From NCBI GenBank assembly GCA_038817485.1, contig JAWAZL010000018.1, positions 1 through 35,028 of the forward strand: a stretch of 35,028 nt of DNA, written 5' to 3'. The position numbers and the translations under genes are program-made. This DNA is from Nitrososphaerota archaeon (GTDB lineage Archaea; Thermoproteota; Nitrososphaeria_A; Caldarchaeales; JAVZCJ01). Shown here in pieces: positions 1-30,847 of the stretch. A model generated the notes under the pieces. That model saw nothing but the letters and a program-made list of their open reading frames with translations, was not told the origin of the DNA and did no database searches. Positions within the stretch are counted from its first letter, which is position 1; each line of letters opens with the position of its first letter.

Positions 1-159
1 AAAATGATTTTAGAAGATAATAAGAAATATTGCAAAAAATGTAATGAATATATTGATGAAAACTTTAATGCTTCAAACAATATTGTAAAGAAAACAATTG
101 AAGCTCTGCTTCCTAAAAGGAGCTTAACCTTTTTAGGAAGAAGAACCGCCACAATATAG
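1..159 (+). CDS. C-terminal end of an unrecognised protein (5' end outside window)
   Basis: The first reading frame is open from base 1 to a TAG at 157-159. It could start at the ATG at 4 or further left, outside the window. The peptide has one CxxC pair (YCKKC, about residues 10-14), which could be half of a zinc knuckle, and is otherwise Lys/Asn/Glu rich. I do not recognise a family. The last third (from about base 105) runs through a strong hairpin (109-140) and into a second one, so that part of the peptide is probably not ancestral and may have been added when the element to the right inserted. It might be the disrupted N-terminus of the radical SAM gene whose C-terminus lies at 1359-1802, but the CxxxCxxC core is absent, so this stays a guess. 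Confidence 0.35.
   Translation, partial: KMILEDNKKYCKKCNEYIDENFNASNNIVKKTIEALLPKRSLTFLGRRTATI
109..140 (+). other. Hairpin 1 of a structured leader region
   Basis: CTTCCTAAAAGG (109-120) pairs with CCTTTTTAGGAAG (128-140) around a 7-nt loop, with one extra T on the 3' side. It is the first of a series of hairpins that continues to about position 497. No T-run follows, so it does not look like a simple terminator. Confidence 0.7.
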
Positions 160-250
160 GAATGAATTTCCTATATTGGAAAGGCGGGAGAGGGGGGAAC
201 ATTGTACTGCTCCTATGGAGCCGATCCCGCCGTAGGCGATTGAAATGGGA
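146..250 (+). ncRNA. GC-rich structured RNA candidate with two alternative pairings
   Basis: CAATATAGGAA (152-162) and TTCCTATATTG (168-178) form a perfect 11-bp stem, extended by CCGCC (146-150) with GGCGG (183-187). The same GGCGGGA (183-189) can instead pair with TCCCGCC (225-231), enclosing the small hairpin CTCC-TAT-GGAG (210-220). The two pairings exclude each other. The stretch 183-250 is far richer in G and C than the surrounding DNA; in AT-rich thermophiles, GC-rich islands outside genes are usually functional RNA. I cannot match it to tRNA, SRP RNA, RNase P RNA or an intron core by eye. It may be a stand-alone RNA, the leader of the endonuclease gene, or part of a mobile intron. Confidence 0.5.
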
Positions 251-289
251 GCTAATAAACATTTATACTGGCGATGGAAACAATGAGTC

Positions 290-356
290 CCATGCTCTTT
301 TTCTCTTCAATGAAATTTGAAGTATATACTTCACTTTGAGAAGAGAAAGAGTATGG
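290..356 (+). other. Long imperfect hairpin with an apical palindrome
   Basis: Bases 290-304 pair with 342-356 (15 pairs including G-U wobbles) and, after one mismatch, 306-310 pair with 336-340. The apex contains the 16-nt perfect palindrome TGAAGTATATACTTCA (318-333). It precedes the still longer hairpin at 368-497. Confidence 0.65.
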
Positions 357-367
357 TATGAGTTTCC

Positions 368-497
368 CTCCTCCTTTTTACTTATGGTATTTATACCAAC
401 TGTTTTCTTGGGTTCAATTCCCAACCTCCGCTCTTTTTACTGCGGAGGTGATAGGATGGAAGCAGTTGGTGTAAGTACCATAAGTAAAGGGGAGGAG
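368..497 (+). promoter_or_regulatory. 40-bp helix closing over the Shine-Dalgarno site of the homing endonuclease
   Basis: Bases 368-407 pair without interruption with 458-497 (40 pairs, a few of them G-U). Inside the junction are two further hairpins: TTGGG/CCCAA (408-424) and CCTCCGC/GCGGAGG (425-431 with 442-448). The second one buries the ribosome-binding site GGAGGTGAT (444-452), a near-perfect match to the archaeal 16S 3' end, 3 nt before the ATG at 456. The first 14 codons of the gene are one strand of the long helix. If the RNA folds this way, initiation should be strongly repressed unless the fold is opened. Confidence 0.6.
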
Positions 498-1355
498 AAA
501 AGAAGATATTTGCCATTGGAAATAAGAGCAACGATGTATGATGATGTTATTGAACTAAAAAAGCAAGGACTAAGCTATACTCAAATTCAAAGAAAAATCT
601 ATGAAAAGTGTGAAATACGATTACCTCGATCTACTATTAGTGATTGGGTTAATAGAAAACGACATCCACTTGGAAAAGTCAATAAATTTGATGGTAAACC
701 TTCATTAGAACTTGCGTATGCTATTGGAACGAAAAATAGTGATGGTTGCTTATACTTTAACAATGACAGAAAATATTCTATAATATTAGCCGTTAATGAT
801 AAAGAATTTGCAGAGGAGTTTGGAAAATGCTTAGCTAAACTATTACACCGAAAAGAGCCTTATAAACCATTTTGGGATAAAAAACATAAACAATGGAGAG
901 TAGAATGTTGCAGTATTCTACTTTATAAATTCTTAAATAAGCCATTAGAAGAGCTAAAACCGTACATTGAATATTCTAAAGATTGTGTTTCTGCATTTCT
1001 AAGAGCATTATTTGATGGAGAAGGTAGCATATATGTAAGTAGAAAACGCTCCAGACGAATATTAATGCTTTTTAATACAAATATAGAACTATTAAATTAT
1101 GCTAAATATTTATTGAAGAAATACTTTGATATCGATGCTACAGGGCCATATTTAGCAAGAAAAGGCGGTGAGATTTTGCGTTTTCCAAATGGTAAAGTTG
1201 TTAAAACTAAAAAAGACTATTATTACATTTATATTCGTGCAAAAAGCTTATTAAACTTCTATAAATACATCGGATTTACGATAAGACGAAAACAACAAAT
1301 TTTAATAGAAGCTAACAAAGAACCACTCCCCCTTTTTCTTTTTAGTTTTTATTAA
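456..1355 (+). CDS. LAGLIDADG homing endonuclease with N-terminal helix-turn-helix
   Basis: A 299-aa protein that would cut a long asymmetric DNA site and promote its own spread. The two LAGLIDADG helices are LAYAIGTKNSDG (about residues 86-97) and FLRALFDGEG (about 181-190), each ending in the acidic D/E-G expected at the active site. Residues about 28-70 form a helix-turn-helix (QGLSYTQIQRKI then STISDWVN). The open frame extends left to 336, but the ATG at 456 sits just after a perfect Shine-Dalgarno GGAGGTGAT, and the extension lies in hairpin DNA, so 456 is chosen. Its stop TAA is followed at once by an in-frame TAG and then the radical SAM remnant in the same frame. A decayed copy lies at 25473-25978. 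Whether it belongs to an intron, intein or free-standing element is not clear. Confidence 0.85.
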   Translation: MEAVGVSTISKGEEKRRYLPLEIRATMYDDVIELKKQGLSYTQIQRKIYEKCEIRLPRSTISDWVNRKRHPLGKVNKFDGKPSLELAYAIGTKNSDGCLYFNNDRKYSIILAVNDKEFAEEFGKCLAKLLHRKEPYKPFWDKKHKQWRVECCSILLYKFLNKPLEELKPYIEYSKDCVSAFLRALFDGEGSIYVSRKRSRRILMLFNTNIELLNYAKYLLKKYFDIDATGPYLARKGGEILRFPNGKVVKTKKDYYYIYIRAKSLLNFYKYIGFTIRRKQQILIEANKEPLPLFLFSFY

Positions 1356-1358
1356 TAG

Positions 1359-1802
1359 AAAGTTCCAATATTTATTATACTAGAAACAAACGGAATAATA
1401 TTAGGTTCTAATAAAGGTTATGTAAAAAAACTTGCTGAATTTAAAGATAAACTTTATGTTAGAGTCTCTTTTAAAGCAGCTACACCAGAAGGTTTTACTA
1501 TGAGAACTGGAGCTTTAGGAAAATACTATGACCTTCCATTTAAAGCATTAAAATATCTTTTAGACGAAGGAATTGATGCTAGAGCTGCAGCAATGACAGA
1601 TCCAAGAATAATGTCAAAAGAAGAGAGAAAACTTTTAATTCAAATATTAGATGAAATAGATCCTAAAGCAAATTATAATAGAACTTTAGAAGAAGAAGTA
1701 ATAGATCCTTATGATACAACTATTAAGAGATTAAGAGCTTTTACCGATAGAGAATTTGCAAAAAAGCTTGAACAAGAACTTAAATCTGTGAAGAATATTT
1801 AA
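1359..1802 (+). pseudogene. C-terminal remnant of a radical SAM protein
   Basis: The frame is open from 1359, right after a TAG, and encodes about 147 residues starting VPIFIILETNGIILG. This matches the late beta-strands of an archaeal radical SAM family (ETNG-IL-IG, then LYVRVSFKAATPEGF, then an R/L-TGA motif). The N-terminal half with the CxxxCxxC cluster motif and GGEP-like strand is absent; upstream is the homing endonuclease. A downstream ATG at 1500 could start a 100-aa piece, but neither piece can bind the catalytic cluster. The gene seems to have been cut by insertion plus deletion. Its stop TAA (1800-1802) shares bases with the convergent Yip1-family pseudogene stop. Confidence 0.75.
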
Positions 1803-25382: not shown

Positions 25383-25472
25383 AAATCATTTTTGTTCTTC
25401 AATATAGAATAAAGGGAAGCTTACGAATTTTATTATTTATTTCTCTTGTTTTTATATCTTTAAATAGGTTTA

Positions 25473-25978
25473 GGAAAAAACATTATCCACTTGGAAGGAT
25501 CGATAAATTTGATGAAAAAACCTTCACCAGAGCTAAATTATGCCGTTGGAACGATAATTGGCAATGTTTATAAACGCTTTGATAGTAGAAATTACTGTTT
25601 TCGCTTAGTTATTAAAGATTATGAGTTTGCAGAAGAATTCGGGAAGTATTTAGCTAAAGTATTAAAGAGAAGAAAACCATATAAACTTTTTTGGAATAAA
25701 AAAGAAAAAAAAGGATAGTGGAAGTATGCAGTATTTTACTTTACAAATTCTTAGATAAACCATTAGAAGAGCTAAAACCATACATTGAATATTAATATTC
25801 TAAAGATTGTGTTTCTGCATTTTTAAGAGCATTATTTGATAGAGAAGGTAGCATACATGGACAAATATTAGAGCTTCACAATACAAATATAGAGTTGCTA
25901 AACTATGCTAAATATTTATTGAAGAAATACTTTGATATTAATGCTATAGGGCCATATTTAGTAAGAAAGACTAATTAA
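25473..25978 (+). pseudogene. Decayed, truncated copy of the LAGLIDADG homing endonuclease
   Basis: The DNA is closely similar to 456-1355, starting in the middle of the protein (KKHYPLGRIDKFDE matches RKRHPLGKVNKFD). A one-base A insertion shifts the frame before KPSPELNYAVG. LAGLIDADG motif 1 is degenerate (LNYAVGTIIGN). A second shift follows an A-run near 25705, and a 6-nt insertion adds a TAA after PYIEY near 25793. Motif 2 is FLRALFDREG, with R for the conserved G. A stretch after it is deleted and the C-terminus is lost at TAA 25976-25978. It lacks the helix-turn-helix domain and the hairpin leader of the intact copy, so it is a fossil of an earlier insertion. Confidence 0.85.
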
Positions 25979-25980
25979 AG

Positions 25981-26478
25981 CTATACAATAGACTTTCCTC
26001 CTTCTTTTTTTCCTTCTACTTCTTCATTATATGATGTTCTATTAATTCTATACTTAAGATGTACTCCTTGGCCAATTCTTTGTAAAATACCTTTATTTGA
26101 TAAACGAGAGAGATATGTTGAAATTGTACTTAATGGTAAAGGTTGGTGGTATTCTAATAAGTATGCTTCATAAAGCTCTTTTGAAGAAAAATATCCAAAT
26201 GGAAAATATTTTTCTATTACTTTTATTAAACGATGAAATTTATTTTCTTCCTTAGAAAGAATATTTTCTTCTATATTACCTCCATATAATTCAATAAAAT
26301 CAGCTAGTTGTAGAATTTTTTCTCTATTTATTCTACCTTCAAATATTAAAGTAAGTTTATCACCATTTTCATCTATTAATTCAAAACGTATTTTTTTCTT
26401 TGTCAATCTCCAGCATATTTCTCTTTTTAGTAATAAAGATTTTAGTATATCCAATGTGAGGTAATACATAAAACACAT
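25981..26478 (-). CDS. Winged-helix DNA-binding protein beside the origin
   Basis: A 165-aa (or 162-aa) protein. Residues about 30-60 form a small beta region (RFELIDENGDKLTLIFEGRI), and about 95-150 a winged helix (FSSKELYEAYLLEYHQPLPLSTISTYLSRLSNKGILQRIGQG, here given as FSSKELYEAYLL, the recognition helix LSTISTYLSRLSNKG, and the wing ILQRIGQGVHLKYRI). The tail is charged. TATA-like TATAAAAA (26487-26494) suits the second ATG at 26469 as a leaderless start. It diverges from orc1/cdc6 across the origin, so it may regulate or take part in initiation, but the family is not one I can name. Confidence 0.7.
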   Translation of the reverse strand: MCFMYYLTLDILKSLLLKREICWRLTKKKIRFELIDENGDKLTLIFEGRINREKILQLADFIELYGGNIEENILSKEENKFHRLIKVIEKYFPFGYFSSKELYEAYLLEYHQPLPLSTISTYLSRLSNKGILQRIGQGVHLKYRINRTSYNEEVEGKKEGGKSIV

Positions 26479-30397: not shown

Positions 30398-30526
30398 GCA
30401 GGGGTTCCCTAGTCTGGTCAATACTAAGAGTGGCTAGAGGGGGCAGTAGCCCCAATGCCTCGGCTTAAGACCTGCTGGCGTAGACATTGGCGCAAGCCTT
30501 CGTGGGTTCAAATCCCACCCCCTGCA
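30398..30526 (+). tRNA. tRNA-Leu (anticodon TAA) with about 44 nt of inserted sequence, probably three small introns
   Basis: Acceptor GCAGGGG (30398-30404) pairs with CCCCTGC (30519-30525), discriminator A at 30526. The T-arm is GTGGG-TTCAAAT-CCCAC. Anticodon loop CTTAAGA (30464-30470) gives TAA. Total length is 129 nt, while a normal archaeal tRNA-Leu has about 85. A standard cloverleaf results if three pieces are removed: about 16 nt in the D-loop (30422-30437), after which CCC pairs with GGG; about 16 nt in the anticodon stem between positions 30 and 31 (30447-30462), after which GCAGG pairs with CCTGC; and 12 nt at the start of the variable arm (30476-30487), leaving TGGCGCAAGCCTTC. The sum is 44 nt and the spliced length 85. 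For the second, AGCC in the intron pairs with GGCT at the 3' exon, as in a bulge-helix-bulge site. Exact borders, especially of the first, are uncertain. Confidence 0.88.
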
Positions 30527-30847
30527 TAAAAAAGAGATGTTTTGGTATCTTGTGAATGTATTTGATTCTTCATATTTTTCCATTTTTATGAATTATTTCT
30601 AAGTTTTCGAATGAAATTGGAATTTCCACTCTCTTTTTCTCTATAATCAATTAATATCATTTTAATTTTATAATATTTTTAAGAAATAAAGGAAAAATAG
30701 ATTTGGAATTTTAATTATAATTTTATAAAAAATAAGAAATTTATAAATTATAAAAAACATTATAAATAATTAAGCTCTTACATTTTTATTCTTTTTTTAA
30801 AATATATATTCTAGAAAAATACTTCTATAGCAAGGGAACGTTGAGAA
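30527..30847. other. Intergenic region without recognisable gene
   Basis: A 320-nt AT-rich stretch after the tRNA. No coding frame, tRNA or clear hairpin is seen. A TATA-like AT run near 30797-30811 may serve the following gene. Confidence 0.4.

Follow-up and report, generated by a model that had tools for sequence, protein, structure and literature searches.

We find that a free-standing LAGLIDADG homing endonuclease gene, in an archaeon of the order Caldarchaeales/Aigarchaeota (a placement by named relatives), is preceded by a leader hairpin of ~40 bp that probably hides the gene's Shine–Dalgarno site and start codon and thereby keeps a toxic DNA cutter low. The gene lies near the start of the window, by which we mean the whole stretch of 35,028 nucleotides that was analysed. 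It corresponds to contig C18 of the assembly G000, which has a size of 1.44 Mb and is 98% complete, and position 1 of the window falls within the left flank of the element (Table 1). The results on the hairpin are based on metagenome assemblies of one genus and comprise eight related sequences from two genomes, G000 and that of a sister species (G001).

Table 1. Leader, endonuclease gene and flanks in the window; fold z-scores are relative to 300 dinucleotide shuffles per hairpin.
Feature	Position	Strand	Details
3' end of a TnpB-like ORF (left flank)	1–156	+	zinc-ribbon tail (CxxC) YCKKCNEYIDENFNASNNI; truncated at the contig edge
Hairpin 1	109–140	+	TTCCTAAAAGGAGCTTAACCTTTTTAGGAA; z −4.1
Hairpin 2 (module M2)	146–187	+	variable outer stem, ATATAGGAAtgaatTTCCTATAT; z −6.6
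Spacer	188–289	+	GC-richer (49%); holds the TATA-like box; z 0.1, no more structured than shuffles
Putative archaeal promoter	258–270	+	AACATTTATACTG; TATA core 262–267; predicted start ~287–293
Hairpin 3	290–356	+	at the predicted mRNA 5' end; z −6.6
Hairpin 4	366–499	+	arms 368–405 and 460–497; z −14.5
T-arm-like hairpin	408–424	+	TTGGG-TTCAATT-CCCAA; apex of hairpin 4
Shine–Dalgarno hairpin	425–448	+	CCTCCGC/GCGGAGG; Shine–Dalgarno site GGAGGTGAT (444–452)
LAGLIDADG homing endonuclease ORF	456–1355	+	299 aa, intact; helix-turn-helix-like N-terminal part; motifs LAYAIGTKNSDG and FLRALFDGEG
C-run and T-run	1328–1347	+	terminator-like, at the 3' end; common to aligned copies
3' part of a radical SAM gene (right flank)	1377–1802	+	truncated at 1377; found only to the right of the element

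The original prediction, that an intact homing endonuclease follows a chain of hairpins, holds. A Pfam search matches the ORF to the LAGLIDADG_3 domain (PF14528, E 9.6e-13), and the acidic residues of its motifs are kept in alignment A1, Asp96 being invariant and Asp187 and Glu189 nearly so. Possession of both motifs with their acidic residues, together with the profile match, places the protein in the LAGLIDADG family. Its closest solved structure is I-DmoI (PDB match, E 3.3e-11). The dN/dS ratio is ~0.3 between the window copy and a second copy on contig C29 of G000, and also relative to the sister-species copies; the protein is therefore, or formerly was, under purifying selection. In G000 two copies are intact (window and C29), a third (C1:124 kb) is frameshifted and several fragments are present besides; G001 has at least five further intact ones, such that intact and decayed copies occur across the two genomes. 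Homologues are found in 25 of 41 genomes of the wider order. A decayed copy also lies between genes in the window itself (25472–26002); the G001 insertion at the corresponding place (L054) is intact.

Hairpin 4 encloses both the Shine–Dalgarno site and the AUG (456), and the first codons of the ORF form its 3' arm. The N-terminal residues that this arm encodes precede the conserved protein core and are missing from most homologues as aligned. This architecture is present in all eight copies from G000 and G001, and the arrangement at its centre, a T-arm-like hairpin stacked on the Shine–Dalgarno stem, is recognisable in five of the eight. The T-arm-like stem itself covaries, TTGGG/CCCAA being replaced by TCGGG/CCCGA in L054. 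Moreover, loci L054, L055, L056 and L059 have Shine–Dalgarno-holding stems that are analogous to the one in the window and built from other sequences.

The pairing of the long arms is maintained through sequence change. Across 29 arm pairs and eight copies, 96.5% of arm cells are paired, and double compensatory changes are seen at 13 of the 29 pairs. None of 500 shuffled alignments reaches the covariation score of 0.431 (shuffled, 0.238), and slid controls give 0.09–0.15. The arms of L059 are near-perfectly paired despite their different letters, and its endonuclease is only 33% identical. Among the arm combinations, G-U outnumbers A-C by 29 to 4, which indicates selection on the sense RNA rather than on a DNA palindrome. 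A covariance model of hairpin 4 (R1) finds exactly eight sense matches in 41 genomes, each preceding this endonuclease gene; since the model was built from the same eight sequences their recovery is expected, and the informative part is the absence of other matches, with no orphan matches and none in the other 39 of the 41 genomes searched. Weaker antisense echoes of R1 occur at the same eight places (sense, 139.5 bits and antisense, 63.1 bits). Hairpin 4 is conserved, covarying and selected on the sense strand.

The copies also differ in how far leader and ORF have diverged. The window copy and C29 share ~97% identity over the leader and first codons, whereas dS for the rest of the ORF is 0.71. 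L055 and L056 show the same contrast between a near-identical leader and a diverged ORF, here confined to the 3' half of the leader. This reflects either extreme constraint or gene conversion of the stretch between copies. It is also what would be expected if the long inverted repeat acted as DNA, as a cruciform, break hotspot or recombination site, with gene conversion making the copies alike. We consider such a role for the DNA improbable, since compensatory changes at 13 pairs are not created by conversion alone, and since the excess of G-U over A-C and the higher sense score of R1 argue that a sense RNA has been kept.

A further alternative is that the hairpins serve chiefly in mRNA stability, in ending upstream transcription or as an RNA thermometer, the burial of the start codon being incidental. 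The position of hairpin 3 at the predicted 5' end and the C- and T-runs at the 3' end are in keeping with this proposal. In every copy examined, however, the arms of hairpin 4 flank the Shine–Dalgarno site and AUG, with the 3' arm in codons outside the conserved protein core, a placement that a stabiliser does not need, and a thermometer would itself count as a form of silencing. Hence, we regard this proposal too as having little chance of being right.

Translational silencing appears, from these comparisons, to be the best-supported reading of hairpin 4. A conserved hairpin over the ribosome-binding site and start of a gene outside any intron or intein assigns the leader to the class of hairpins that hide ribosome-binding sites. 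In the mechanism we propose, the mRNA leader would fold into the ~40-bp hairpin, burying the Shine–Dalgarno site and start codon with the first codons as 3' arm. Synthesis of the toxic DNA cutter would then remain very low until something opens the hairpin, the benefit of lower translation being less DNA damage. The gene would spread by cutting unoccupied chromosomes, into which it would be copied along with flanking DNA. A point against this mechanism is that all of hairpin 4 is downstream of the predicted promoter, with no obvious transcription start inside the stem.

Only G000 and G001, which belong to one genus, carry hairpin 4. Beyond this genus, 34 homologues have leaders that are mostly no more structured than their own shuffles; the endonuclease family is thus old and broad and the start-hiding hairpin a lineage-specific addition. 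Because relatives in other families lack such a leader, the hairpin is not needed for the endonuclease gene as such. Unrelated leaders and an absence of covariation had been named as the observations that would count against a link between RNA and gene; the first is seen in homologues from other families, yet the stems covary strongly. Of 38 endonuclease loci in other Caldarchaeales families, 16 end beside or overlapping a convergent tRNA gene, and the tRNAs are of many types (L072, L074, L076, L077, L080, L082, L083, L086–L091, L094, L096 and L102). Candidate causes of this adjacency are that the tRNA gene is a target, that it is a safe site, or that integration occurs at tRNA 3' ends. The segB gene of phage T4 likewise lies among tRNA genes.

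The other three inverted repeats were also found where they had been predicted, and none of the 300 dinucleotide shuffles made for each of the four hairpins folds as well as the hairpin itself. The 430-nt stretch overall has a z-score of −12 relative to shuffles. The GC-rich core said to lie among them is GC-richer, but it is not structured beyond its shuffles. The 3' strand of hairpin 1 is similar across other leaders, and its 5' strand differs from copy to copy. Hairpin 2 covaries, with double changes in 10 of 14 pairs (nine copies). As module M2 it occurs nine times in G000 and G001, and four of the nine occurrences, located in a G001 gene cluster and the corresponding one of G000, are in leaders of other genes, among them TnpB (PF07282, E 2e-14). 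Hairpin 2 is therefore not specific to the endonuclease. In support of the putative promoter, an 11-mer, ACATTTATACT, recurs in the leaders of C29, L059, L025 (twice) and L190 (twice), and the block from ~251 to 360, which holds the TATA-like box and hairpin 3, is 86–90% conserved with L059. If the box is the promoter, transcription would begin near hairpin 3, leaving hairpins 1 and 2 outside the main endonuclease mRNA. Since TnpB and other genes have hairpin 2 ahead of them too, and since the TATA-like site is located between hairpins 2 and 3, the hairpin chain is composite and not one folded RNA element. The prediction that RNA and endonuclease form a single element is thus borne out in that the two recur together at all eight model matches, but not for the chain as a whole, M2 being found elsewhere too.

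Loci L190 (G001:C1:314000-326000) and L025 (G000:C2:132000-134537) have a gene cluster in which small ORFs accompany TnpB and a PCNA-like protein. The cluster, which may be an integrated virus or plasmid, has tandem RNA modules M2 and M3 in its intergenic stretches. By eye, M3 appears to have an outer stem of ~10–17 bp whose sequence changes. A bolder proposal, which we think doubtful, is of an RNA control system for selfish nucleases that is specific to the lineage: the LAGLIDADG and TnpB genes of the genus would share a kit of covarying leader modules (M2 and M3) and hide their Shine–Dalgarno sites. On this proposal the apex of hairpin 4 in the endonuclease copies, which resembles a tRNA minihelix in that a Shine–Dalgarno stem of 7–8 bp directly follows a canonical T-arm, might be recognised by a host factor that binds tRNA and gates expression.

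The flanks bear on whether the element interrupts a gene. Insertion into a radical SAM gene had been proposed, and the right flank is indeed the 3' part of such a gene, the intact sister of which matches PF04055 (E 2.5e-10). The left flank, however, is TnpB-like and not the other half of the radical SAM gene, and therefore no split gene is seen. The 52-residue left-flank fragment has no significant Pfam match itself; TnpB-type ORFs of G000 and G001 match it at their C termini, and one of these ORFs (L199) has a Cas12f1-like TNB domain. The uninterrupted radical SAM locus sought in a sister genome is present in G001, and also on contig C2 of G000. Contig C2 ends in an exact 127-nt overlap with C18:1377-1503. 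This is a common assembler k-mer length, and hence the inserted and uninterrupted versions would both be present in the population.

Almost all other flanks examined are intergenic. L055 is a clean 2085-bp insertion between genes that includes a fragment of an ERCC4-nuclease gene, and at the empty site in G000 the two flanks are 2 nt apart; comparison of the two sites reveals no target duplication and no sign of splicing. Co-conversion of flanking DNA or break capture fits this insertion better than splicing or classical transposition. The original prediction, in which a gene is interrupted by a mobile RNA of an undescribed kind, is not supported by these copies.

Its expectation that no known intron class would match did hold. 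At gathering score no Rfam family is found anywhere in the window, and at relaxed thresholds no intron model (group I, or group II including domain V) is found in 1–1600 or in the sister loci; the relaxed matches are to miRNA, snoRNA and sRNA models under their cut-offs and were judged chance. A group I intron was rejected for want of a catalytic-core match in Rfam and of two flanking exons, the element having TnpB-like sequence on its left and radical SAM on its right; a group II intron was rejected on the Rfam result, domain V included. No exon pair of an archaeal bulge-helix-bulge intron flanks the window element. An intein was rejected since the ORF has its own Shine–Dalgarno site, AUG and stop and the host frame is discontinuous. 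By eye, the G-run 3' of hairpin 2 seemed able to form a closing stem with the C-run that follows the ORF, but partners from the same copy pair no better than partners exchanged between copies (rank 264 of 720). A tRNA or permuted tmRNA was dismissed, the only match being sub-threshold (24.8 bits, gathering 47). The endonuclease gene of the window is free-standing, neither intron- nor intein-borne. It is very unlikely that RNA and endonuclease are instead a mobile intron of an undescribed kind, self-splicing or RNA-based in some other way, that interrupts host genes. In favour of this idea, the RNA is structured, covarying and multicopy, and M2 stands before both LAGLIDADG and TnpB nuclease genes in a manner reminiscent of introns colonised by different endonucleases. 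Against it, no copy has the two halves of a split gene beside it, other copies are intergenic, Rfam intron models go unmatched even when relaxed, and the closing pairing is no better than that of swapped copies.

Further observations concern neighbouring elements. A probable tRNA gene with an intron, missed by ARAGORN and Rfam, lies at 30399–30526 of the window, with ends GCAGGGG...CCCCTGC and T-arm GTGGGTTCAAATCCCAC; after it, at 30617–30664, is a fragment resembling an ERCC4-gene region. Pieces of ERCC4-type nuclease genes recur near endonuclease and TnpB copies and elsewhere (L055:1193-1785, L018, L057 and L059, and in G000 C2:37177, C38:83, C4:9970, C2:133046 and C1:124676), and represent either a target gene or a co-mobilised flank. 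At L197–L207 a conserved GC-rich RNA directly downstream of tnpB, ccagaaccaagcttcctacccatagg ... gaggggctagactatggtaggaagctattctggca, is probably the omega RNA and right end. The hairpin region of the window was rejected as an omega RNA of the adjoining TnpB, as the RNA conserved 3' of other TnpB genes is a different one and C29 has the region but no TnpB tail.

Several known systems resemble the leader and its gene in part. IS605-type TnpB elements of the same genus share leader module M2 with it, and a TnpB-like end abuts the window copy; unlike them, the window ORF is a LAGLIDADG protein, and the RNA conserved 3' of other TnpB genes is absent here. Archaeal group I introns likewise have LAGLIDADG-type genes adjoining structured RNA, but the 39 described are all in rRNA genes (Nawrocki et al. 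2018, PMC6125680), whereas the window has no group I match, rRNA host or split gene. The window ORF belongs to the same protein superfamily as I-DmoI, its best PDB match. I-DmoI is an rRNA-intron endonuclease; the window gene, in contrast, is free-standing and has a helix-turn-helix-like N-terminal extension. Common leader RNAs before LAGLIDADG and TnpB genes, and homing genes beside tRNA genes across the order, are further relationships to which the analysis points.

The closest likeness is to phage T4-type systems, in which homing endonuclease genes have their ribosome-binding sites masked by stable RNA hairpins. Such hairpins are described for I-TevI, I-TevII, I-TevIII and segB of T4 and mobE of Aeh1, of which segB and mobE are free-standing homing endonuclease genes (PMC2988022). 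Searching the open literature by title and abstract, we found no account of a start-hiding hairpin on an archaeal homing endonuclease; known from phage T4, the arrangement has, as far as we could find, apparently not previously been described in archaea. The present hairpin differs in that it precedes an archaeal LAGLIDADG gene and in its form, a ~40-bp arm helix of which the first codons are part and within which two smaller hairpins lie. Moreover, transcription of I-TevI starts inside the stem, whereas no promoter is apparent inside the stem of the window gene. If correct, our reading offers a simple way to test how hosts put up with DNA cutters encoded in several chromosomal copies. It would also mean that start-codon hiding of homing endonucleases arose in archaea too, among endonucleases of an unrelated class, and that there the RNA fold makes use of the first codons of the protein.
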